Assembly (NCBI RefSeq): GCF_037076455.1
Contig: NZ_AP028679.1
Coordinates: 2,991,501 to 3,055,500 of the forward strand
Length of the DNA stretch: 64,000 nucleotides
From: Desulfoferula mesophila
GTDB lineage: Bacteria; Desulfobacterota; Desulfarculia; Desulfarculales; Desulfarculaceae
Direction: 5' to 3'
In this document: positions 5,032 through 63,674 of the stretch, one piece after another
How the letters are laid out: every line of letters starts with the position of its first letter
Position numbering within the stretch: position 1 is the first letter of the stretch
Made by a program: the position numbers and the translations under genes
The notes under the pieces: model-generated
Seen by the model: the letters and a program-made list of their open reading frames with translations, nothing else
Databases searched by the model: none
What the model was told of the DNA's origin: nothing

Positions 5032-6432
5032 TCAGGCGGCCAAGGCGGCCAGGGCCTTGGCGATGACCGCCGCGTCGTCGGCCACCAGGGTGCGCACGTC
5101 CATGAGCAGGTGGCCGTCTTCCAGGCGGCAGATTATGGGGGGATCGCCCGCCCTGAGCGCCTGCTCCAGGCGGGTGGCGCTCAGGCCCTTGACGGCCAGC
5201 CTGAGTAGGCGGGTGCGGGGCGCGGCCAGGGGCATGGCCCCGCCGCCCACCCGGCTCACGCCTTCCACGGTGGAAACCTCCAGCCGCTCCAGGCCCAGCT
5301 TCTTCAGGCGGGCGGCCAGGCGGTTGGCCCGCTCGCGCAGGCGCTCGTAGGGCACGGTGATCATGGCCAGGGTGGGGATCTCGGCCAGGGCCTTGGCCGG
5401 ATCACGGTAAAGCTCCAGGGTGGCTTCCAGGGCCCCCAGGGTCAGCTTGTCCACCCTGAGCGCCCGGTTGGTGGGGTTCTTGCGGCAGCGCTCCACGAAC
5501 TCGGCCTTGCCCAGGATGATGCCCGCCTGGGGCCCGCCCAAGAGCTTGTCCCCGGAGAAGGTGACCAGGTCCGCACCATCGGCCAGGGCCTCCTGCACCG
5601 TGGGCTCCTTGGGCAGGCCGTAGCGCGAGTAGTCCACCAGGCTGCCCGAGCCCAGGTCCTCCATCACCGGCAGATGGTAGCGGTCGCCCAGCTCGCGCAG
5701 CTCTTGTAGCGGCACCTCCTTGTGGAAGCCCACCACCGCGAAGTTGCTGGTGTGCACCTTGAGCAGCAGGGCCGTGTTGGAGGTGATGGCTCCCTCATAG
5801 TCGTGCAGATGGGTCTTGTTGGTGGCCCCCACCTCGCGCAGGATGGCCCCGGAGCGGGCCATCACGTCCGGAATGCGGAAAGAGCCCCCGATCTCCACCA
5901 ACTGGCCCCGGCTGACCACCACCTCGCGGCCGGCGGCCAGGGTCTGCAGGGACAAGAGCACTGCGGCGGCGTTGTTGTTGACCACCAGCGAGGCCTCGGC
6001 CCCGGTCAGTTCGCAGAGGATGCGGTCCACGTGCACGTAGCGGCTGCCTCGCGCCCCGGCCGCCAGGTCGTACTCCAGATTGCTGTAGGTGCAGTTGATC
6101 TCGATCAAGCGCTCCAGGGCCCGCCGGGCCAGCAGGGAACGCCCCAGGTTGGTGTGCACCACCACCCCGGTGGCGTTGACCACCCGCTGGAGGCTGGGCG
6201 CGGCCAAGCGCCGGGCCAGGGAGGCGGCGGCCAGGGCCACCGCCTCGCCGCCAAGCTCCTCGTCCGTTACTTCCTGGCCGTCCAGCAAACGGGCGCGCAG
6301 CCCGTCCAAGGTCTGGCGGGCCGCGCTCAAGATCAGGGGACGAGCCACCTCCGGGCGCAACTGTTGCAGGGACGGGTGCTCCAAGAGCTGGTCCACCTTG
6401 GGCAACCGCGCCAACCGCTTTTGTTCCGCCAT
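5032..6432 (-). CDS. selA: L-seryl-tRNA(Sec) selenium transferase
   Basis: A 466-residue PLP enzyme converting Ser-tRNA(Sec) to Sec-tRNA(Sec) with selenophosphate, the bacterial route to selenocysteine. The PLP lysine is K296 in FSGDKLLGGPQAG, matching the family position. The N terminus (LPKVDQLLEHP) and the core VVVHTNLGRSLL are typical. The start at MAEQKRLARLP has AGGAG 5 nt upstream; longer frames lack a site. No selB, selD or selC is in the window. The gene follows a NUDIX gene by 34 nt and precedes the GGDEF/TPR gene by 10 nt, an unusual partner for selA. Its presence implies that the organism makes selenoproteins. Confidence 0.95.
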   Translation of the reverse strand: MAEQKRLARLPKVDQLLEHPSLQQLRPEVARPLILSAARQTLDGLRARLLDGQEVTDEELGGEAVALAAASLARRLAAPSLQRVVNATGVVVHTNLGRSLLARRALERLIEINCTYSNLEYDLAAGARGSRYVHVDRILCELTGAEASLVVNNNAAAVLLSLQTLAAGREVVVSRGQLVEIGGSFRIPDVMARSGAILREVGATNKTHLHDYEGAITSNTALLLKVHTSNFAVVGFHKEVPLQELRELGDRYHLPVMEDLGSGSLVDYSRYGLPKEPTVQEALADGADLVTFSGDKLLGGPQAGIILGKAEFVERCRKNPTNRALRVDKLTLGALEATLELYRDPAKALAEIPTLAMITVPYERLRERANRLAARLKKLGLERLEVSTVEGVSRVGGGAMPLAAPRTRLLRLAVKGLSATRLEQALRAGDPPIICRLEDGHLLMDVRTLVADDAAVIAKALAALAA

Positions 6433-17618: not shown

Positions 17619-19743
17619 GGTGATCCTCCTTGTTCTTGAGCCGTTGCAAGCGCACCAGGCGCGCGTAGAGCCCGTCCAGGTCCATAAGCTCCTGATGCCG
17701 CCCCTGCTCCACCACCCGCCCCTGGTGCATCACCAGGATGTTGTCCGCCCGGCGAATGGTGGACAAACGGTGGGCCACCACCAGGCTGGTGCGCCCGGCC
17801 ATGACCCGGGGCAGGGCCTTTTGAATGAGCCGCTCGCTCACCGGGTCCACGCTGCTGGTGGCCTCGTCCAACACCAGCACCCGGGGCTCCCCGGCCACCG
17901 CCCGGGCCAGGGCCAAGAGCTGGCGCTGCCCCGCGCTGAGGCGCCGCGCCCCCTCGCCCAACTGGGTGTCCAGGCCCGCCTCCAGGCGCCCCACGAACTC
18001 GGCCGCCCCGCTGACTTCCAAGGCCCGCTCCAGGTGCTCCTGGTCCACCTCCGGGCGATGCAGGGTGATGTTGTCCTTCACCGTGCCCGAGAGCAGAAAC
18101 ACCTCCTGGGAAACCAGGGCCACCCGCTTGGCCAGGTCCTTGCGGTCCATGTCCCTGAGATCCACTCCGTCGATGGCGACGGACCCCTGGTCCGGGTCGT
18201 AGAGGCGCAGGAGCAGGTTGACCAGGCTGGTCTTGCCCGCCCCGGTGGGGCCAACCACGGCCCAACTCTGGCCGGGCGGGATGGTCAGGTCAAGCTCGTG
18301 CACCACCGGCCGCCCCGGCTCGTAGCCAAAGGTGACCCCGCGAAACTCCACCTGGCCCGGCCCCGGCTGGGCCGGCGCGGCGGTGCGCGGCGCGGGCAGG
18401 GCCTGGTCGTTGTCCAGTAGATGGAAGATGCGCTCGCCGGAGGCCATGGCCGCCTGCATGATGTTGTACTTCTCGGCCAGGTCGCGCACCGGGCGGAAGA
18501 ACATCTGCATATAGGCGATAAAGGCCACCAGGGTGCCCAGGCTGAGCTGGTCCTGGATCACCCGCCCGCCGCCGTAGTAGATGATGAGAGCCATGGCCAC
18601 CGAGCTGAGTAGCTCGGTGATGGGCAGGAAAACGGTGAAGACCTTGACCTGGCGCATGCCCGCGGCGAAGTAGCCATCGTTGAGCTCGCGGAACTTTTCT
18701 TCCCCCGCCCGCTCGGCCCGGAAGAGCTTGATCACCGCCATGCCGTCCAGGGTCTCGCTGAGCCAGCTATTGATGCGCCCCAGATGGCCTTGCAGGCGGC
18801 GGAAGGCGTCGCGGGCCAGGCGGGAGAAGGCCCAGGCCAGGGCCCCCACCACCGGGGTGAGGGCCAGGCAGACCAGGGCCAGGTAAAAGTCCAGCCACAA
18901 CAACACCAGCACGATGCCCACGATGACGAAAAAGTCCTGAAACAGCGAGACCAGGGCGCTGGTGAACATTTCGTTGAGGTTCTGGATGTCGTTGGTCAGG
19001 CGGGTGACCAGCTTGCCCACCGGGTTGCGGCCGTAGAAAAACTCGTTGCGCCCCAGCAGGTGGCGGTAGAGCTGCTGGCGCATGGCCAGCATCATCTCCT
19101 GGCCGGTGCGCTCCAGGAGCATGGTCTGGAAATAGCCCAAGATGAACACCCCGGCGGCGGCCAGCAAGAACACCAGGGCCAAGCGGGCCAGACCCCAGGC
19201 GTCCGGAGCGCGCAGGGCCCGCACCTGGGCCTCGGGCAGCCGGGCCAGGTCCGGGGTGGCGATCACCCAACGCTCCCCCGCCTTGATGAACACCCGGGGG
19301 TGTTCCCCGGCCAGGCGCTCGGCCTCTTTGGTTTGGGGCGCCAGGTAAAAGGGGTCCTTGCTCACCGCGCCGGCCTGGCGCAGCTTGGCGGTAAGGCGGG
19401 GGTCCAGCTTGCGCCAAGCGGTTTCGGGCACGAACACCGCCCCGCTCCGACCGGGCAGGAAAGAGGCGCCCGCTCCCTGGCGCAACCGTGCCGCCAGCTC
19501 TGGCGGGGCGTCGCCGGGCCGCACCTCCAGGGCCTGGCGCACCATGTAGTTGTCAATGGCCAGGCGGGTGATGTAGGGCAGGCTCAGGTCCAGGCCCGTG
19601 GCCAACAGGGTGAGCAGCGAGGCGAACAGAATCACCGCCAAATGGGGCCGCCCATAGGAGGCCAGGCGCTTGAGCAGCCGGAAGTCGTAGGGCTTGCCCA
19701 GCTGGTCGCCTTCCATGTAGCCGAAATCTCCCGGCGGAGCCAT
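17602..19743 (-). CDS. ABC exporter subunit with large external insert
   Basis: A 713-residue fused membrane-ATPase half transporter. A first helix at about 35-60 is followed by an unusual hydrophilic insert (about 68-185) before the second helix, so membrane segments total about six. The ATPase has Walker A GPTGAGKT (K504), signature LSAGQRQLLALARAV and Walker B VLVLDEATSSVD with catalytic E627. It pairs with the upstream subunit, whose catalytic Glu is lost, giving a heterodimer with one competent site, as in BmrCD/TM287-288 type multidrug exporters. The start has GGAGG 11 nt upstream and lies 2 nt after the partner's stop. Confidence 0.9.
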   Translation of the reverse strand: MAPPGDFGYMEGDQLGKPYDFRLLKRLASYGRPHLAVILFASLLTLLATGLDLSLPYITRLAIDNYMVRQALEVRPGDAPPELAARLRQGAGASFLPGRSGAVFVPETAWRKLDPRLTAKLRQAGAVSKDPFYLAPQTKEAERLAGEHPRVFIKAGERWVIATPDLARLPEAQVRALRAPDAWGLARLALVFLLAAAGVFILGYFQTMLLERTGQEMMLAMRQQLYRHLLGRNEFFYGRNPVGKLVTRLTNDIQNLNEMFTSALVSLFQDFFVIVGIVLVLLWLDFYLALVCLALTPVVGALAWAFSRLARDAFRRLQGHLGRINSWLSETLDGMAVIKLFRAERAGEEKFRELNDGYFAAGMRQVKVFTVFLPITELLSSVAMALIIYYGGGRVIQDQLSLGTLVAFIAYMQMFFRPVRDLAEKYNIMQAAMASGERIFHLLDNDQALPAPRTAAPAQPGPGQVEFRGVTFGYEPGRPVVHELDLTIPPGQSWAVVGPTGAGKTSLVNLLLRLYDPDQGSVAIDGVDLRDMDRKDLAKRVALVSQEVFLLSGTVKDNITLHRPEVDQEHLERALEVSGAAEFVGRLEAGLDTQLGEGARRLSAGQRQLLALARAVAGEPRVLVLDEATSSVDPVSERLIQKALPRVMAGRTSLVVAHRLSTIRRADNILVMHQGRVVEQGRHQELMDLDGLYARLVRLQRLKNKEDHHGNGD

Positions 19744-25025: not shown

Positions 25026-25402
25026 AATTGGTTTAGCGCCGCCGCGCCTATTACCTTTAAGAGTTTTGAAAAAATGAATGGGAGGCGATCCCCGCCTGGG
25101 CAACAGGCCCCAGCGCCTCTTGCACTGGCCTAGCTTTCGAACTGAGGCCCCCGATAACCAGGCAAGCCTCTCCGACCCAGCCTTCTCAGCAAGGCGGCGA
25201 GGCGACAGGTGGCCGGGGCGACGCGCCAGCCAACCCGCCTTTTCATTTTTTCCAGACTCTTTGCCCGGGAACGATCACAACGGGCCCGCCGGTCGCGGCA
25301 CAACGGTGGACGACGACCGGGGACTTAAGCGCCACATTGACTTATAGCGAGGTCTGAGCGCCGCCGACAACGCCGCCCAAGGAGGCCTGGCGAAGCCGCC
25401 CC
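25026..25402. other. Convergent intergenic region, 377 nt
   Basis: No coding region is supported. The last 60 nt are a copy of the dispersed palindromic repeat (25341-25400). A block around 25175-25215 (ACCCAGCC, then AAGGCGGCGAGG) resembles the left arm of that repeat, so the whole stretch may be a decayed or interrupted element. No obvious intrinsic terminator for the RNB gene was found. Confidence 0.45.
25341..25400 (+). repeat. Dispersed palindromic repeat, copy D (right half)
   Basis: Shares with the other copies the ordered blocks GAGGTCTGAGCGC, GCCGACAACGCCGCC and GCCTGGCGAAGCCG. Its right end lies 2 nt from the stop codon of the minus-strand FMN-protein gene. Other copies: 34917-35034, 39377-39497, 62923-63043 (inverted) and 63315-63368. 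Confidence 0.7.
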
Positions 25403-25876
25403 CTACTCCCCCATCTGGTTGCGCTTGCCGCTTAGATGCTCGATCTCCACACAGATCACGGCCAGGCCCTGGACCTTTTCGGGAGGGAAATCCATCTCGC
25501 CTTCATAGCCGCATTGGCGGGCGATGGCCGCCAGACCGGCCACCTTGGCCTCCAGATCTTCCACCAGGGTGGCCCGGCCCAGGCCCACCACGCTGCGGTA
25601 GCGGGTGTCCCATTTGCAGGGGTTGGGCCCGCTCATCAACTCCACCGACTCCATGACCGTGAAGCTGACCTTGGGGTTGGCGGCCAATATCTCCATCTTC
25701 AGGCCCTTGGGCCCGGTGTGCATGTAGACCTTGCCCTCCAGGCAGCCGTAGTTCATGGGCACCACGTAGGGCTGGTCGCCCTGGGCCAGGGCCAGGCAAA
25801 GGATGTTGCCGCGCTCCAGGATGGCTTGGGCCTCTTCGTTGATTTGCTTCTGGGTCTTGCGCAGGGGCCGCTGCAT
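25403..25876 (-). CDS. Pyridoxamine 5'-phosphate oxidase-like FMN-binding protein (NimA-like)
   Basis: A 157-residue split-barrel flavoprotein. Features fitting the NimA/PNPOx-like group are LALAQGDQPYVVPMNYG near the N terminus, MHTGPKGLKMEILAANPKVSFTV in the core and RYRSVVGLGRATLVED. Members reduce small nitro compounds or bind FMN/heme; the substrate is not predictable. The start at MQRPLRKTQ has GAGGAG 8 nt upstream; a longer frame lacks a site. It begins 2 nt after the glycosyltransferase stop and ends the hisH operon. Confidence 0.82.
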   Translation of the reverse strand: MQRPLRKTQKQINEEAQAILERGNILCLALAQGDQPYVVPMNYGCLEGKVYMHTGPKGLKMEILAANPKVSFTVMESVELMSGPNPCKWDTRYRSVVGLGRATLVEDLEAKVAGLAAIARQCGYEGEMDFPPEKVQGLAVICVEIEHLSGKRNQMGE

Positions 25877-34556: not shown

Positions 34557-34916
34557 ATGGACAAGCCCGTTTTGCTGAAAAACATCGATTTTGCCCAACC
34601 CCTGGACCTGGCCGGCCTGGTGGAATATCAGCCGGGCCAGGTGGTGAGCCGCACCCTGGCCCAGAACAACTTCCTGAGCCTGACCCTGTTCGCCTTTGAC
34701 GCCGGGGAGGGCATCAGCGCCCACACCGTGCCCGCCGACGCCCTGGTGCAGGTGTTCGACGGCCAGGCCGAGGTGGTCATCGACGGCCAGGTGATGAACG
34801 TGGCCGCCGGCCAGGTGGTGGCCATGCCCGCGGGCAAGCCCCACGCCCTCAACGCCCGCCAACGCTTCAAGATGGTGCTTACGGTCGTGCGTCCCCCTCA
34901 GACCGTCGGTCTCTAA
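34557..34916 (+). CDS. Small cupin-domain protein
   Basis: A 119-residue single-domain cupin. The first half motif reads GEGISAHTVPADALVQVFDGQ and the second VVAMPAGKPHALNA. Metal-ligand His residues (HTV, PHA) are present, though the usual G-x5-H-x-H is reduced. Small stand-alone cupins of anaerobes often bind metal or a small ligand; no reaction can be assigned. GGGAG precedes the ATG. Its 3' end meets the lutBA gene across repeat copy A. Confidence 0.85.
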   Translation: MDKPVLLKNIDFAQPLDLAGLVEYQPGQVVSRTLAQNNFLSLTLFAFDAGEGISAHTVPADALVQVFDGQAEVVIDGQVMNVAAGQVVAMPAGKPHALNARQRFKMVLTVVRPPQTVGL

Positions 34917-35034
34917 GGGCCCAGCCAGGCTACGGCAGACAAGGCATTCGGCAAGCGAAAGCCGCAGGCGTAGTAAAGCTACGTCGAGGCTTGAGCGCGC
35001 CGATAACGCCGCATGCCGGTGTCTGGCTGGATCC
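34917..35034 (+). repeat. Dispersed palindromic repeat, copy A
   Basis: Outer arms CCAGCCAG and CTGGCTGG (with AGGG/CCCT beyond) enclose an inner palindrome, GGCGTAG...CTACGTC at about 34966-34985, in a conserved GCCGCAGGCGTAG / CGTCGAGGC context. It fills the convergent gap exactly, from the cupin stop codon to the lutBA stop codon. It may act as a bidirectional terminator or be a mobile-type repeat. Confidence 0.75.
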
Positions 35035-37179
35035 CTACTTTTCCTTCTTGGCCTCGGCCAGGGCCTGGGCCAGATGCCGCACCTTGATGGGCGAGCCCAG
35101 TTGGTCCAGGCCGCCCTCCAGTTGCAGCACGCAGCCGGGGCAATCAGTGACCAGGGTGTCAGCCCCGGTGGCCGCCACCTGGCTGAGCTTGCGCTCCAGG
35201 ATGGCCGCCGAGAGCTCGGGGAAGTCCAGCGAATAGGACCCGCCGAAACCGCAGCACACCTCCTCGTCGTCATAGGGCCGGTACTCATAACCCGCCTGGG
35301 CAAGCAACTCCTTGGAGGCGTCGTGCACCCCCAGACCCCGGCAGAGGTGGCAGGGGGCGTGGTAGGCGAAGGAACGGTCCTGCTCCTGCCCCTGCGCCGA
35401 GCCCGTCTCCTTTTGCAGGAAGCTGGCCAGGTCGCTGACCTTGTCCGCCAGGTGCTGGGCCCGTTTGGCCCAGTCCGGGTCGTCGGCCAAAAGCTGGGGA
35501 TAGTTCTTCAGGTGGGAGGCGCAGGAGGCGCACAGGGTTAGCACGTAGTCGTGGTGCTCGGCGTCCAGGGCGGCCAGGTTTTGCCGGGCCACCTCCCGGG
35601 CGGTCTCCTCCTCGCTGGCCATGGCCGCGGGCAGGCCGCAGCAGGTCTGGTCCCGGGCGTAATCCACCTGAACGTTCTCGCCCTGGAGCAACCCCAGGAA
35701 GGCCTCGGCCTGCTCGGGATACACGAAGTCGATGAGGCAGCCGCCGAACAGGGCCACCTTGAGCCTTGGCGCGGCCGGGCGGGGGGCCAGGCGCTCCCAG
35801 CGGTCGCGCAGGGGCTCGGCCGTTACCACCGGCAGGCTGCGGAATTCCTGGCCCGGCGCGAAGAACAGGGGCAGGTGGCGGATGAGCCTCTCGCCCCCGG
35901 CCAGGGGCTTTTGGGCCAGATAGGCCTGGCGCAGCAGGAAGTGGAACAAGGGCCGGTTGTTCAGCACCCGGCGCAGGAGCTGGTTCTTGAGAGGGCGGCC
36001 CTCCTCGGCCATGACCAGCCCGGCGGTCTTTTTGATCAGCCCCGGCAGGTCGATGCCCGCCGGGCAGTTCACCTTGCAGGCTTGGCAGTTGAGGCAGTTC
36101 TTCACCAGCTCTCCGCCCGCCTCCAGGCCGTGGTAGAAGTAGGTGAGGATCAGGCCGATGGCCCCGATGTACACGTGGCCGTAGTGGTGGCCGCCCACCT
36201 TGCCGTAGATGGGGCACACGTTGGCGCAGGAGCCGCAGCGCAGACAGCGCAGGGCCTGGCTGAACACCGGGTCTTGGGACAGGGCCAGGCGGCCGTTGTC
36301 CAGAAACACGATGTGCAGCTCCTTGGTTCCGCCGTTGGCCGCGCACTCCACCGCCCCGGTGACCCAGGTGACGTAGGTGCTGATGGGCTGGCCGGTCACG
36401 GAGCGGGGCAACACCTGCAAAATTTTGAGCGGGGTGTTCAGGTCCGGCACCAGCTTTTCCAGGCCCACCAAAGCCACGTGCACCCGAGGCAGGGTGGTGA
36501 CCAGACGGGCGTTGCCCTCGTTGGTCACCGTGGCGATGGAGCCGGTGGAGGCTAGGGCGAAGTTGGCCCCGCTGATGCCCATGTCCGCTTCCAGCATGGC
36601 CTGGCGCAGCCGCTTGCGGGCCACCTCCACCAGGGCGGCGATGTCCTCGGGGTCCTGCTTTTCGCCGGTGACCTGGGTGAACAGCTCGGCCACCTGGCTG
36701 CGCGACAGGTGGATAGCCGGGGCCACCATGTGGCTGGGCTTCTCGTGGCGCAGTTGGATGATCCACTCCCCCAAATCGGTCTCGGTAACCTGCAGGCCCT
36801 GGGCCTCCAGGTAGGGGTTCAGGAATATCTCCTCGCTGGTCATGGACTTGGACTTGACCACCTTTTTGACCCCGGCCCGGGCCGCGATGCCCGCGATGAT
36901 CTCCCGGGCCTGGGCCGCGTCGCGGGCCAGGTGCACCGTGGCCCCGGCCGCCTCGGCCTTGGCCTTGAACTGCTCAAACAGCTCGGGCAGGTGGCCGATG
37001 GCCGCGTCCTTGGCCTCCCCCACCCCCTCGGCCAGGGCCGGGAAGTCCAAACCCGCGAAACCGGCCGCCCGGGCCCCCCGGTAGTGGGTCTGGAAGCGGG
37101 CCAGGGTCTGGCCCAGGAAGCGGTTGTCCAGGGCGCCCTTAAGGCTCTGGTGATAGCGGCGGCGGGAGGCGCGGCTCAT
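35035..37179 (-). CDS. LutB-LutA fusion: LUD / ferredoxin / CCG lactate-oxidation protein
   Basis: A 714-residue protein combining two normally separate subunits of the LutABC (LldEFG) L-lactate dehydrogenase complex. Residues about 60-300 form the LUD domain (EEIFLNPYLEAQGL; ASTGSIATVTNEGNARL). Two 4Fe-4S motifs follow: CLRCGSCANVCPIYG (about 313) and CLNCQACKVNCPAG (about 363). The last 240 residues are LutA-like with two CCG clusters, CCGLPAAM (about 513) and CCGFGGSYS (about 641). It would move electrons from lactate to the quinone pool or another carrier. The start has GGAGG upstream and overlaps lutC (ATGA). Confidence 0.9.
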   Translation of the reverse strand: MSRASRRRYHQSLKGALDNRFLGQTLARFQTHYRGARAAGFAGLDFPALAEGVGEAKDAAIGHLPELFEQFKAKAEAAGATVHLARDAAQAREIIAGIAARAGVKKVVKSKSMTSEEIFLNPYLEAQGLQVTETDLGEWIIQLRHEKPSHMVAPAIHLSRSQVAELFTQVTGEKQDPEDIAALVEVARKRLRQAMLEADMGISGANFALASTGSIATVTNEGNARLVTTLPRVHVALVGLEKLVPDLNTPLKILQVLPRSVTGQPISTYVTWVTGAVECAANGGTKELHIVFLDNGRLALSQDPVFSQALRCLRCGSCANVCPIYGKVGGHHYGHVYIGAIGLILTYFYHGLEAGGELVKNCLNCQACKVNCPAGIDLPGLIKKTAGLVMAEEGRPLKNQLLRRVLNNRPLFHFLLRQAYLAQKPLAGGERLIRHLPLFFAPGQEFRSLPVVTAEPLRDRWERLAPRPAAPRLKVALFGGCLIDFVYPEQAEAFLGLLQGENVQVDYARDQTCCGLPAAMASEEETAREVARQNLAALDAEHHDYVLTLCASCASHLKNYPQLLADDPDWAKRAQHLADKVSDLASFLQKETGSAQGQEQDRSFAYHAPCHLCRGLGVHDASKELLAQAGYEYRPYDDEEVCCGFGGSYSLDFPELSAAILERKLSQVAATGADTLVTDCPGCVLQLEGGLDQLGSPIKVRHLAQALAEAKKEK

Positions 37180-37832: not shown

Positions 37833-37869
37833 ATTGGGGTTCCTGCCATGAACCACGCCGGGAGGGATG

Positions 37870-39252
37870 ATGAGCACCGCCGCCCTGCACCAGGAGTTCG
37901 CGCGCATCGCGGGCCCGGAGAACGTCTTTAAGGACGCCTCGGACCTACTCACCTATTCCTACGACGCGGCCCTGTTGCCCAGCCAGCCGCCCGGCCTGGC
38001 GGTGCGGCCCACCACCCTGGAGGCCCTGGGACAGGTGGTGCGCCTGTGCAACCAGGAGGGCCTGCCCCTCACCGTGCGCGGCGCCGGCACCAACCTGAGC
38101 GGCGGGACCATCCCGGCCCGGGAAGGGGTGGTGGTGGTCACCACCGCCCTGAACCGCATCGTGGAGATAAACCAAGAGGACCTCTACGCGGTGGTGGAGC
38201 CGGGGGTGATCAACGCCCGGTTGTTCGCGGAGGCCCAAAAGCTGGGGCTGTTCTACCCCCCGGACCCCGGCAGCCAGGCGGTGTCCACCCTGGGGGGCAA
38301 CGTGGCCGAAAACTCCGGCGGGCTCCGGGGGCTCAAGTACGGGGTGACCCGCGACTACGTCATGGGTCTGAGCTTTTTCGACACCGAGGGCCAGTTGGTG
38401 AAGACCGGCTCGCGCACCGTGAAATGCGCCACCGGCTACAACCTGGCCGGGCTGATGGTGGGCTCCGAGGGCACCCTGGGGGTGTTCGGCCAGATCATCC
38501 TCAGGCTGATCCCCCCGCCGGCGGCCAGCCGGGCCCTGCTGGCGGTGTTCGACCGGGTGCAGGCGGCCAGCGAGACCGTGGCCGCCATCATCGCCGCGCG
38601 CATCACCCCCGCCACCCTGGAGTTCTTGGACAACTTCACCATTCGCACGGTGGAGGAATTTTCCGGGGCCGGTCTGCCCACCGAGGCGGCGGCCCTGCTG
38701 TTGATCGAGGTGGACGGCCACCCGGCCCAGGTGGCCGAGGAGGCCCAGAAGGTCCAGGAGATCTGCCGGGCCCAAGGAGCCACCCTGGTGCGCCCGGCGG
38801 CCGACGCGGCGGAAAAGGAGCGCATCTGGACCGCCAGGCGGGCGGCCATCCCCGCCCTGGCCCGGCTCAAGCCCTCGGTGGTGCTGGAAGACGCCACGGT
38901 GCCCCGCAGCAAGGTGCCCGAGCTGGTGCGCTTCATCAACGATTTGGCCAAGCGCTACGAGCTGACCATCGGCACCTTCGGCCACGCGGGCGACGGCAAC
39001 CTGCACCCCACCATCGTCTTTGACCAGCGCGACGCCGAGCAGGAGAAGCGGGTGCGCCAGGCGGTGGAGGAGCTGTTCGACCGGGCCCTGGCCCTGGGCG
39101 GCACCCTGTCCGGAGAGCACGGCCTGGGGCTGACCAAGACCCGCTTTTTGGTCAAGGAGGTGGGCAAGGCCACCATCGCCTGGTCCCGGCGGCTCAAGCG
39201 GGCCATGGACCCCAAGGGCATCCTGAACCCCGGCAAGATCGTGGGGGCCTAG
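37870..39252 (+). CDS. FAD-linked D-lactate/glycolate dehydrogenase (GlcD type)
   Basis: A 460-residue flavoprotein of the VAO/PCMH family with a C-terminal FAD-oxidase domain. FAD contacts include LPLTVRGAGTNLSGGTIPA and PGSQAVSTLGGNVAENSGG. The C-terminal block TIGTFGHAGDGNLHPTIVFD has the substrate/metal His, and GEHGLGLTK is characteristic. It oxidises a 2-hydroxyacid (D-lactate or glycolate). The following GlcF-type gene is its likely electron acceptor. ATGATG at 37867: the second ATG is preferred because GGAG sits 5 nt before it. Confidence 0.92.
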   Translation: MSTAALHQEFARIAGPENVFKDASDLLTYSYDAALLPSQPPGLAVRPTTLEALGQVVRLCNQEGLPLTVRGAGTNLSGGTIPAREGVVVVTTALNRIVEINQEDLYAVVEPGVINARLFAEAQKLGLFYPPDPGSQAVSTLGGNVAENSGGLRGLKYGVTRDYVMGLSFFDTEGQLVKTGSRTVKCATGYNLAGLMVGSEGTLGVFGQIILRLIPPPAASRALLAVFDRVQAASETVAAIIAARITPATLEFLDNFTIRTVEEFSGAGLPTEAAALLLIEVDGHPAQVAEEAQKVQEICRAQGATLVRPAADAAEKERIWTARRAAIPALARLKPSVVLEDATVPRSKVPELVRFINDLAKRYELTIGTFGHAGDGNLHPTIVFDQRDAEQEKRVRQAVEELFDRALALGGTLSGEHGLGLTKTRFLVKEVGKATIAWSRRLKRAMDPKGILNPGKIVGA

Positions 39253-39270
39253 CCCGGATACTCCATGAAG

Positions 39271-39306
39271 GCTGTGCGGCAATACGCAGCTGTGCGGCAA
39301 TACGCA
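39271..39306 (+). repeat. Tandem 18-bp direct repeat, two copies
   Basis: GCTGTGCGGCAATACGCA occurs twice without a gap, just inside the left inverted repeat of the MITE-like segment. Two units only; not a CRISPR. Confidence 0.9.
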
Positions 39307-39376
39307 AAAGATTTAATCCATGAGGTCCCAATGAAAAGTATTTCCATACTCACCGCGCAGGGATTACACCAAACCT

Positions 39377-39497
39377 CGGCACAGCCGGCCAGCGGCGGAC
39401 AAGGCGCCTGGCAAAGGAGGGCCGCAGGCGTAGCCAAAGCTGCGTCGAGGCCCGAGTGCAGCCAGCAACGCCGTATGCCGGTGGCCGGCGCAGCCGG
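39377..39497 (+). repeat. Dispersed palindromic repeat, copy B (121 nt)
   Basis: From CGGCACAGCC to GGCGCAGCCGG, with the inner GCCGCAGGCGTAG / GCGTCGAGGC core. It has the same 121-nt length as the inverted copy at 62923-63043, although many positions differ, including paired changes in the inner stem. Confidence 0.75.
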
Positions 39498-39527
39498 ACG
39501 CGCCGCCTCCATGGAGTATCTGGGCTA

Positions 39528-44038: not shown

Positions 44039-44114
44039 GGGCCCATAGCTCAGTTGGTAGAGCCTCCGGCTCATAACCGGATAGTCCCTGGTTCGAGGCC
44101 AGGTGGGCCCACCA
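44039..44114 (+). tRNA. tRNA with CAU anticodon (Met, or Ile2)
   Basis: A 76-nt cloverleaf. Acceptor arms GGGCCCA and TGGGCCC pair, followed by ACCA with encoded CCA. The D-arm region is GCTCAGTTGGTAGAGC, the anticodon stem TCCGG/CCGGA with loop CTCATAA (anticodon CAT), and the T-arm holds GGTTCGAGGCC. It begins with a paired G, so it is not an initiator. CAU can be elongator Met or, if lysidine-modified, Ile2; I cannot decide by eye. A run of T follows. Confidence 0.92.
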
Positions 44115-46568: not shown

Positions 46569-46937
46569 CGGAGTCGGCCGGATGACCGCCGGCCCCCTTG
46601 GGGGGCGGGAGGAAAGTCCGGGCACCGCAGGGCAGGGTGCTGGCTAACGGCCAGGGGGGGCGACCCCACGGAAAGTGCCACAGAAAACAAACCGCCCGCG
46701 CCTGTTGCGCGCGGGTAAGGGTGAAACGGCGAGGTAAGAGCTCACCGCTGGGGCGGCGACGCCCCAGGCACGGCAAACCCCACCCGGTGCAAGACCAAAT
46801 AGGGAAGCGTCACGAGGGCGGCCCGCCCCAGCTTCCGGGTAGGTCGCTGGAGACGGCGGGCAACCGCCGTCCTAGATGAATGGTCATCGCCCGGCCGCCA
46901 GGCCGGGAACAGAACCCGGCTTACAGGCCGGCTCCGC
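46569..46937 (+). ncRNA. rnpB: RNase P RNA, bacterial class A
   Basis: The catalytic RNA of RNase P, which trims tRNA 5' ends. P1 is formed by GGAGTCGGCC near 46570 and GGCCGGCTCC near 46926. Universal core segments are present in order: GAGGAAAGTCCGGGC (CR I), CCACAGAAAACA (CR II), GGTAAGGGTGAAACGG, GTGCAAGACCAAATAGGG (CR IV region), and AGAACCCGGCTTACAGGCCG (CR V). About 369 nt. Ends are placed from P1 pairing and may be off by a few bases. Confidence 0.95.
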
Positions 46938-46963
46938 CCCGGCTCTTCACGGGGAACTAGCGC

Positions 46964-61338: not shown

Positions 61339-62910
61339 ATGTCATCAGCCAGTGAACAACATAAAATGACCCGAGCCGCGGGGGTGGTGGGCCTGGCCAC
61401 TTTGGCCAGCCGGGTGGGCGGTTTTCTGCGCGACGTGGCCATCGCCTACCTGTTTGGGGCCGGTCCGGCGGCGGACGCCTTTTTCGTGGCCTTCCGCATA
61501 CCCAACCTTTTGCGCCGCCTTTTCGCCGAAGGCACCCTTACCATAGCCTTCATACCGGTGTTTACCGAACTGCTCAAGAAAAAGGGACGCGAGGAGGCCT
61601 TTCTCCTGGCCCGCTCCACCCTTTCCCTGCTGGCCCTGGCCCTCTTGGCGGTCACCATCGCCGGAGAGATATTCGCGCCCCAGGTGGTGCGGCTCATCGC
61701 GCCGGGCTTCACCCCCGGCGAGGGCACCTTCGCCCTGGCGGTGGAAATGACCCGCTGGTGTTTGCCCTACATATTCTTCATCAGCCTGGTGGCCCTGGCC
61801 GGGGGCGTCCTGAACTCTTTGGGGCATTTTTTCGCTCCCGCCGCCGCCCCGGCCTTGTTGAATCTTACCATCATAGCCGCCGCCCTGGTTCTGAGCCCCC
61901 GGGTGGACCCGCCGGTGCTCAGCCTGGCCCTGGGGGTGCTCGTCGGCGGGGTGGCCCAGCTTTTGATGCAGCTACCCTACCTCAAGGCCCTGAAGGTGCC
62001 CTTCAAGCCCGCCTGGGATTTGAAGAACCCGGCCCTCAGGCGCATGTTGCGCCTGATGATCCCGGCCATCTTCGGGGCGGCGGTGTACCAGGTGGCGGTG
62101 CTCATCGACACCATCCTGGCCTCTTTTTTGCCCAGCGGCACGGTGAGCTACCTCTACTACGCCGACCGGCTGATCCAGTTCCCCCTGGGGGTGTTCGCCA
62201 TCGCGGTGAGCACCGCCATCCTGCCCAGCCTGTCGCGCCAGGCCGCCGACGGTGACAAAAAGGCCCTCCTGGGCACCATGGGCTACGGCCTGCGCCTGAT
62301 CCTGTTCATCACCCTGCCGGCCATGGTGGGGCTGTTGGTCCTGGCCCGGCCCCTGGTGGTGCTGTTGTTCATGCGCGGCGAATTTACTCTGGCCATAGCC
62401 GGGGAGACCGCCGGGGCGGTGATGGGCCTGGCCGCCGGGCTTTGGGCCATCGCCGCGGTGCGGGCGGTGGTGCAGTCGTTCTACGCCCTCAAGGACATCA
62501 AGACCCCGGTGATGGTGGCCGCCCTGTGCCTGGTCATCAAGCTGGGCTTCTCCCTGGCCCTCATGGGCCCGCTGCAGCAGACCGGCCTGGCCCTGGCCAC
62601 CTCGGCCTCGGGCGTGGTCAACCTGCTGTTGCTTTTGTGGCTGCTCAGAAAACGGGTGGGGCTGTTGGGCGGGCGGCGGCTGCTCAAGTCCGGCCTGGGC
62701 ACCTGCGCGGCGGCCGCGGTCATGGGCGCCCTGGTGGCCCTGGTGGCCTATGGCCCGGACTGGGGCGACCAGCAGGCCGCCCTGTGGCGCTGGGCCCGGC
62801 CCCTGGCCGCCCTGGGGGTGGGCACCGCCTCCTACTTCGTGGCGGCCAAGCTCATGCGCCTGGCGGAACTGGGCGAGCTGTGGGAGGTGTTTCACCGCCG
62901 GCGGGCCTAG
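61339..62910 (+). CDS. murJ: Lipid II flippase MurJ
   Basis: A 523-residue inner-membrane protein of the MOP superfamily with about 14 helices. It flips lipid II for peptidoglycan synthesis. Conserved: ATLASRVGGFLRDVAIAYLFGAG, DAFFVAFRIPNLLRRLFAEG (with the essential Arg residues), FIPVFTELLKKKG, VLIDTILASFLPSGTVSYLYYADRL and QFPLGVFAIAVSTAILPSLSR. The start is ATG after AAGGGG. It ends next to repeat copy C. Divergent from rpsT. Confidence 0.95.
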   Translation: MSSASEQHKMTRAAGVVGLATLASRVGGFLRDVAIAYLFGAGPAADAFFVAFRIPNLLRRLFAEGTLTIAFIPVFTELLKKKGREEAFLLARSTLSLLALALLAVTIAGEIFAPQVVRLIAPGFTPGEGTFALAVEMTRWCLPYIFFISLVALAGGVLNSLGHFFAPAAAPALLNLTIIAAALVLSPRVDPPVLSLALGVLVGGVAQLLMQLPYLKALKVPFKPAWDLKNPALRRMLRLMIPAIFGAAVYQVAVLIDTILASFLPSGTVSYLYYADRLIQFPLGVFAIAVSTAILPSLSRQAADGDKKALLGTMGYGLRLILFITLPAMVGLLVLARPLVVLLFMRGEFTLAIAGETAGAVMGLAAGLWAIAAVRAVVQSFYALKDIKTPVMVAALCLVIKLGFSLALMGPLQQTGLALATSASGVVNLLLLLWLLRKRVGLLGGRRLLKSGLGTCAAAAVMGALVALVAYGPDWGDQQAALWRWARPLAALGVGTASYFVAAKLMRLAELGELWEVFHRRRA

Positions 62911-62922
62911 CCCGATAGTCCT

Positions 62923-63043
62923 CCGGCTGCGCCAGGAAGCGTCATGCTGCGTTGGCGGCATCGCTTGGGCCTCGGCGTATATATCAATACGCCTGCGGTC
63001 CGCGCTCGCCGCCGCCTAGCCTGACACTCCCTGGCTGTGCCGG
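62923..63043 (-). repeat. Dispersed palindromic repeat, copy C (121 nt, inverted)
   Basis: Reverse complement reads CGGCACAGCCAGG to CCTGGCGCAGCCGG. Its inner stem is GGCGTAT / ATACGCC, where copy A has GGCGTAG / CTACGTC: both arms differ in a compensating way. Its right end lies 12 nt beyond the murJ stop codon. Confidence 0.78.
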
Positions 63044-63314: not shown

Positions 63315-63368
63315 TCTAGAGGCCCGAGCCCAGCCGACAACGCCGCCATGCGAGGTCTGGCGAAGCCG
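63315..63368 (+). repeat. Dispersed palindromic repeat, copy E (right half)
   Basis: Blocks GAGGCCCGAGCCC, GCCGACAACGCCGCC and GTCTGGCGAAGCCG. Closest to copy D. Its right end touches the stop codon of the minus-strand 101-aa gene at 63369. Confidence 0.68.
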
Positions 63369-63674
63369 CTAGTGGGTCTGGCCGGTCAGGGGCTCCAACA
63401 GGCGGCCCTTTTCATCGACCAGGTACACGCTGAAACCCTCGTCCTGGGCCTGGCCCAAGAGCTGGGCCTTGTGAATGGCCTCCACGCTGCGGCTGTACAC
63501 CCCTTCGGTGTCGGGAAGGCGGCCCACCAACATCAGGGCCTGATCCTTTTCCGCGGTCACCGGGATAAAGCTCTCGCCGTCATCGTCGGCCATCCCCAGG
63601 AAGTTCTCGTCGTTTCTGGTGCGCTCTATGATCACCCACACGTATTGGCTGGCGTCAACTTCATTGCCGGACAT
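63369..63674 (-). CDS. Unknown small protein, 101 aa
   Basis: A soluble, acidic protein without signal or membrane segment. YVWVIIERTRNDENFLGMAD, SFIPVTAEKDQALMLVGRLP and FSVYLVDEKGRLLEPLTG suggest a compact alpha/beta fold, somewhat like small SseB/DUF-type proteins, but I cannot name the family. GGGAG precedes the ATG, and codon use is like its neighbours. Apparently monocistronic. Confidence 0.65.
   Translation of the reverse strand: MSGNEVDASQYVWVIIERTRNDENFLGMADDDGESFIPVTAEKDQALMLVGRLPDTEGVYSRSVEAIHKAQLLGQAQDEGFSVYLVDEKGRLLEPLTGQTH

Follow-up and report, generated by a model that had tools for sequence, protein, structure and literature searches.

The window analyzed here is a 64,000-nucleotide stretch of the Desulfoferula mesophila genome (family Desulfarculaceae), covering positions 2,991,501-3,055,500 of a single 4,479,191-bp contig. 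It carries copies, which we call A to E, of a palindromic repeat that is dispersed in this 4.48-Mb genome. The original prediction had listed five related elements in the window, and all five places do carry related sequence: copies B, C, and D are full-length, A is degenerate, and E is a remnant. These copies and the features that belong to them are given below, with scores under the covariance model R1, which is described further on.

25281..25401, plus strand: copy A, a strongly degraded full-length copy (R1, 26.3 bits)
34917..35037, plus strand: copy B, a full-length hairpin (R1, 103.2 bits)
34967..34973, plus strand: left arm of the copy B inner stem, GGCGTAG, placed by sequence and structure
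34979..34985, plus strand: right arm of the copy B inner stem, CTACGTC, placed by sequence and structure
39250..39527, no strand assigned: a 278-bp miniature inverted-repeat transposable element (MITE) carrying copy C, recognized by empty congener sites and inverted ends
39377..39499, plus strand: copy C, a full-length hairpin within the 278-bp MITE (R1, 112.6 bits)
62921..63042, minus strand: copy D, a full-length hairpin (R1, 127.9 bits)
63315..63368, plus strand: copy E, a 3'-half remnant matching copy A at 82% across 51 nt

The full-length unit (B, C, and D) is a nested, bulged hairpin of 121-123 nt whose ends read (C/G)CGGC...GCCG(G/C), with an extra terminal pair, C..G or G..C, that is complementary in 45 of 68 copies. 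The shared sequence blocks, the arms able to pair, and the switch of the inner arms between GTAG/CTAC and GTAT/ATAC, all described from the window beforehand, are present in the copies. The limits proposed for the elements needed correction, while the repeats themselves are real: the unit extends by one more base pair on either side, copy A runs to full length, its 3' half (25341-25400) being better kept than its 5' part, and copy C lies inside 39250-39527.

Copy B entirely takes up the gap between the convergent genes 34557-34916 (+) and 35035-37179 (-), and the 3' end of copy D is 10 nt past the stop codon of gene 61384-62910 (+). By our gene calls, the 3' end of copy A adjoins the stop codon of gene 25403-25876 (-), and the end of copy E directly adjoins that of gene 63369-63674 (-). 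The MITE around copy C provides the stop codon of gene 37867-39252.

A 12-mer search yielded 24 copies, from which we built alignment A2 and then R1; the model was thus seeded by a motif search. R1 found about 102 nonredundant copies in the genome, counted after near-palindromic reverse-strand matches had been taken out. R1 also gives good copies a score on their reverse strand, though a far lower one, so the strand of these copies is not in doubt. Copy E was not detected by R1, even at E <= 1. Tandem arrays and degenerate remnants of the element are common, and one deletion derivative (G000 1371463-1371543) has lost the inner hairpin while retaining both outer arms.

RNAalifold folded the copies into a single long stem with bulges, in which 19 of the 38 pairs have compensatory changes. 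The covariation score was 0.320, compared with 0.153 in shuffles (0 of 500 reached the observed value) and at most 0.082 for slid partners. For the congener G006, the score was 0.298 vs 0.115, with 29 of the 38 pairs altered on both sides, in an alignment that was fitted to the model and so favors the structure. Because related copies can mislead shuffles, we also counted double changes falling on the same branch in a tree of 81 copies. At paired columns there were 99, where 21.5 were expected (slid controls came to 1.00 ± 0.19 fold), and G006 had 52 against 11.8 expected. An R-scape-like test with an improved null returned eight pairs at E <= 1, every one of which belongs to the structure, as do all three pairs that were significant with a cruder null. 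The original prediction of a dispersed structured family with covarying stems is supported, both by the further copies and by covariation above the phylogenetic background. Based on the roughly 102 genomic copies and on covariation exceeding a tree-based null, the observation of a repeat family is confirmed far beyond chance.

The two strands of the element are not equivalent. In 77 of 81 cases with DNA parameters and in 72 of 81 with RNA parameters, the element strand (plus for B and C) gave the better fold of the two; these counts are not independent, since the copies share ancestry. G.U and U.G combinations outnumber A.C and C.A combinations 220 to 93 (about 2.4-fold), with a by-column sign test that is only suggestive. 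From the better folding of the element strand and this excess, one strand appears to be the folded one. Bulges and asymmetric loops are also conserved among copies, and the hairpin shape looks to be under selection.

Four further properties go beyond the original prediction: placement behind stop codons, replication polarity, mobility, and the MITE enclosing copy C. Judged by our own codon-based gene calls (877 predicted genes over 885 kb), 0 of the 102 copies lie inside genes; 68 are in convergent gaps, 33 in tandem gaps, and 1 in a divergent gap. The 3' end of the element faces the stop codon of the antisense gene in 91 of 102 cases. Among single copies in convergent gaps, this end was at most 20 nt from the stop codon in 38 of 42, compared with 1 of 42 on the other side and with 9.2 of 42 expected from uniform placement (maximum 18 in 10,000 draws). 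The same rule was seen in G005 (14 of 21 within 20 nt, other side 0 of 14) and in G006 (20 of 29 within 20 nt, other side 1 of 35). In one example (L063 ~5290-5335), a hairpin with a T run, resembling a terminator, is found farther downstream, so that the element there sits between the stop codon and the terminator and does not replace the latter.

The copies are also oriented with respect to replication. We took position 0 as the probable origin because dnaA, identified by sequence and database matches, lies at 8-1336 and because GC skew, weakly positive over 0-2.24 Mb, turns negative past that point (P = 4.5e-5). The minus strand carries 45 of the 50 copies on the right arm, and the plus strand 44 of the 52 on the left arm (Fisher P = 4.5e-15); in all, 89 of 102 are oriented towards dnaA, and copy D is one of the 13 that oppose the usual orientation. 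When clusters are counted instead of copies, 71 of 80 follow the polarity (P = 4e-13). No copy lies in 1.92-2.45 Mb, which makes the exact terminus immaterial, and copy density is higher near the origin (Kolmogorov-Smirnov P = 6e-7). Each carrier genome tested also has a second, divergent dnaA-like gene with 32-36% identity to the main one (G006:C8:184908 and C1:746786; also G001, G002, G004, G005, and G010).

A leading-strand bias of genes was considered as the sole cause of this polarity and rejected, as only 54% of genes are on the leading strand and orientation in tandem gaps tracks replication. There, 21 of 23 gaps of leading-strand genes have the element antisense, and 8 of 10 gaps of lagging-strand genes have it in the sense direction (P = 1e-4; 0.008 without MITE copies), so replication, not gene direction, sets orientation in these gaps. 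The polarity recurs in G005 (22 of 26 copies, P = 0.0005) and G006 (37 of 50, P = 0.0009), whose contigs were assigned to replication arms by synteny and whose copies were counted by hand; the count for G006 takes each contig to run in a single direction, and the species have some copies in common by descent. In the distant, single-contig genome G315, 13 of 13 copies are on one strand over a 1.3-Mb stretch and mixed elsewhere, which is suggestive only.

Comparison with congeners shows that sites change between species. The copy C site is empty in G005, G004, and G001 (gaps of 7, 15, and 25 bp vs ~280 bp), and copy C is present in G007 at 94% identity. The MITE that carries it has inverted ends of ~22-30 bp, TAGCCCGGATACTCCATGAAGG and TAGCCCAGATACTCCATGGAGG, with TA at both borders. 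Similar MITEs with such terminal inverted repeats (TIRs) lie at G000 1597071, 1822884, and 3769046; most units hold the hairpin, and the hairpin-carrying ones, which comprise copy C and a few others, are 226-278 bp long. Another TIR MITE unit, at G000 3936902, is only ~170 bp. An autonomous parent of the TIR MITE was not found. An open reading frame running through copy C was dropped as a coding candidate, since insertion of the MITE into an intergenic gap explains the sequence.

The copy B site is empty in G001, while in G007 and G004 it is occupied by a copy closely related to B but pointing the other way, the one in G007 being 86% identical and the second-best match of all copies. Elements can therefore be inverted at their site or replaced. 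Several shared sites hold copies that, between the two species, are not each other's closest relatives, which means that elements were inserted again, or converted, at these gene ends. Given congener sites that are empty, differently filled, or inverted, we conclude that the repeat is mobile. For plain copies, those outside a MITE, no target duplication was seen above control.

Two other repeats were observed. Many copies are followed, on the side facing away from the gene they abut, by a second palindromic repeat that is GTAGGTTGGGTTGAGCGAAGCGAAACCCAAC-like; homology between copies often runs on into this repeat. A third, dispersed repeat of ~225 nt (GTCATGGCGAGGAGCGG...CTCGCGATGAC) has many matches in congeners.

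L063:5111-5155 and 5230-5275 (G000 ~89.1-89.3 kb): GTAGGTTGGGTTGAGCGAAGCGAAACCCAAC-like repeat
L063:5411-5633, with similar sequence near L063:7982-8203, 17629-17855, and 18228-18475: ~225-nt repeat

The element occurs in all eight genomes of the genus, each with at least 26 copies, and copy number varies between close genomes. One genome of another genus in the family has 43 matches, and the remaining family members (sister genera) have no R1 match. Across the phylum, 83 of 394 genomes and 54 of 244 genera have R1 matches, nearly all spanning the full model (1-123), with scores outside the genus and family of up to 68 bits in the phylum sample; 1 of 30 outgroup genomes has a single weak match of 35 bits. 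The family is probably phylum-wide, and only probably so, because the E-values are approximate and the composition of the outgroup set is different; the distant matches are known by their model scores. Plasmid and phage homologues were not found by blastn, and matches to the core motif in viral contigs were discarded as chance, since 10 of 10 had no element around the core. An Rfam scan of the window gave no family for the repeat above the gathering cut-off; it returned only a bacterial RNase P class A RNA (46570-46939) and a tRNA gene (44039-44111).

Dispersed extragenic copies, a compensatory structure, presence, absence, or inversion at shared sites, a fixed placement of the 3' end, and orientation by replication arm are the features shown by the analysis. 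We lean somewhat towards a family of nonautonomous mobile DNA hairpins, REPIN- and ERIC-like yet separate from both. The folded single strand would be the substrate recognized by an enzyme supplied in trans, and copies would enter, or be kept at, the 3' ends of genes in a process coupled to replication. The polarity might arise because the common orientation is better tolerated or because its lagging-template strand is used for insertion; this orientation puts the less stable of the two possible hairpins on the lagging-strand template. The lack of a target duplication fits single-strand movers, and IS200/IS605 elements insert into the lagging-strand template (PMC6006769). Some copies, such as copy C in the window, have also been captured by a TIR MITE and move with it. 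On this best reading, the replication polarity and the stop-codon placement are unusual for such hairpins. We think it unlikely that the idea extends to a phylum-wide superfamily of mobile hairpins with fixed polarity, inserting directly behind the stop codons of leading-strand genes through a single-strand mechanism coupled to replication and gene ends, with an enzyme outside the known RAYT/IS200 group.

Several results weigh against a mobile DNA hairpin. Plain copies yielded no clean empty site with base-exact borders, so their exact mobile unit is taken from the alignment. The Y1/RAYT transposase (PF01797) had 0 matches in the own genome and none in three other carrier genomes; Y1 is present in 4 of the 8 genomes of the genus and the element in 8 of 8, and only 1 of 8 Y1 loci in the genus has a copy inside a stretch of ~3 kb. 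RAYT/Y1 was accordingly rejected as mobilizer, being absent from the own genome and having loci mostly without flanking copies. An age test for loss of the minority orientation gave P = 0.01 by score and no effect by branch length, and the proposal that minority-orientation copies are younger, only partially supported, was set aside. Placement behind stop codons could also reflect host selection. A serious rival, which we nonetheless hold to be rather unlikely, is a hairpin transcribed as 3' untranslated or regulatory RNA, 0-14 nt past the stop codon, that stabilizes the message or stalls the terminating ribosome, as has been shown for repetitive extragenic palindromic (REP) sequences of E. 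coli located within 15 nt of a stop codon. Covariation would then equal selection on RNA, and the stop-codon placement, the compensatory changes, and the G.U pairs speak for it. REPs separated from the stop codon by <16 nt reduce translation (PMC12306157), and the Geobacter relatives are annotated as predicted short RNAs (PMC2700814). Against this reading, the strand that folds better lies antisense to the gene it abuts, and to both neighbors in 23 tandem cases; a replication polarity would not be expected of such an RNA, and the rapid turnover of copies between species also argues against it.

The polarity in three genomes and the origin-proximal density would suit a polar chromosome signal selected by the host, comparable to KOPS or gyrase-bound BIMEs, in which a protein reads oriented sites for replication, segregation, or supercoiling and their orientation is maintained by selection; the conserved bulged motifs are potential protein-binding sites. 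We consider this very unlikely, as the same site can be filled, empty, or inverted among congeners, the sister genera of the family have no match, and tandem arrays and degenerate remnants are common. It is slightly harder still to credit a decaying palindrome without selection on its structure, in which repair templated by the hairpin transfers the sequence of one arm to the other. Repair of this kind would give double changes on the same branch, and the in-place inversion of copy B relative to congeners hints at hairpin or cruciform dynamics, but the bulges and asymmetric loops are conserved and not corrected, and G.U exceeds A.C, though with the suggestive column-wise test noted above. A mobile DNA hairpin remains the reading that we prefer. 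Extragenic palindromes have long been known, and whether they are selfish DNA or host signals is still disputed; with covariation supported by a tree, a constant distance to stop codons, and a polarity countable in every complete genome, insertion bias, RNA function, and selection by replication can be told apart with straightforward tests. Should the matches across the phylum hold up, they would join scattered "multicopy sequences" of many related genomes in one family.

Among known systems, REPINs and BIMEs (Bertels and Rainey 2011, PMC3116915) are similar in being long hairpins of ~100 nt that are extragenic, carry compensatory changes, occur in clusters, and are thought to be mobile; an orientation of some tandem arrays on the two sides of the origin has been noted for them as well (PMC3116915). 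The present element shares the long hairpin with compensatory changes and the extragenic location, mostly 3' of genes. It is not a REPIN by definition, because it lacks two tagged REP units and its own genome lacks a RAYT. No conserved GTAG/GTGG foot was found at the hairpin base, and the flanks, which show one covarying base pair, have no tetranucleotide that is conserved. REPs tagged with GTAG or CGTC (Di Nocera et al. 2013, PMC3733652) are likewise palindromes mostly downstream of genes, and the CGTC type is also without a dedicated transposase (PMC3733652). CGTC REPs have an 8-9 bp stem, a terminal CGTC tag, and a CCA-like tail (PMC3733652), a form that this element does not have: its CGTC is inside the innermost stem of a 121-nt hairpin whose ends are untagged. 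TIR MITEs resemble the carrier of copy C and a few others in their inverted ends and TA at both borders, whereas most copies of the element have neither such ends nor a target duplication. ERIC sequences are imperfect intergenic palindromes of ~127 bp in Enterobacteriaceae. The likeness to ERIC is one of size and shape only, and the host group differs.

A family of 24 members in Geobacter metallireducens (Gmet_R1005 and 23 others), described as predicted short RNAs, is intergenic and multicopy like the present element and also occurs in G. sulfurreducens, G. uraniireducens, and Desulfotalea psychrophila (Aklujkar et al. 2009, PMC2700814). Its authors point to 5' regions and to a role as RNA (PMC2700814), and the text of the paper, as far as we draw on it, describes no covariation, replication polarity, or stop-codon rule. 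The core given in its legend is a central palindrome, GRCGTAGCGCTGCTACGCC, that, apart from the loop, equals the center of our element when this is read from the complementary strand (G[A/G]CGTAGC-loop-GCTACGCC), variable second base included. In most copies, this core is the complement of the inner stem GGCGTAGC..GCTACG[T/C]C, with differences in loop length and sequence. Based on this shared core, the 24-member G. metallireducens family appears to be the closest published relative of the element.
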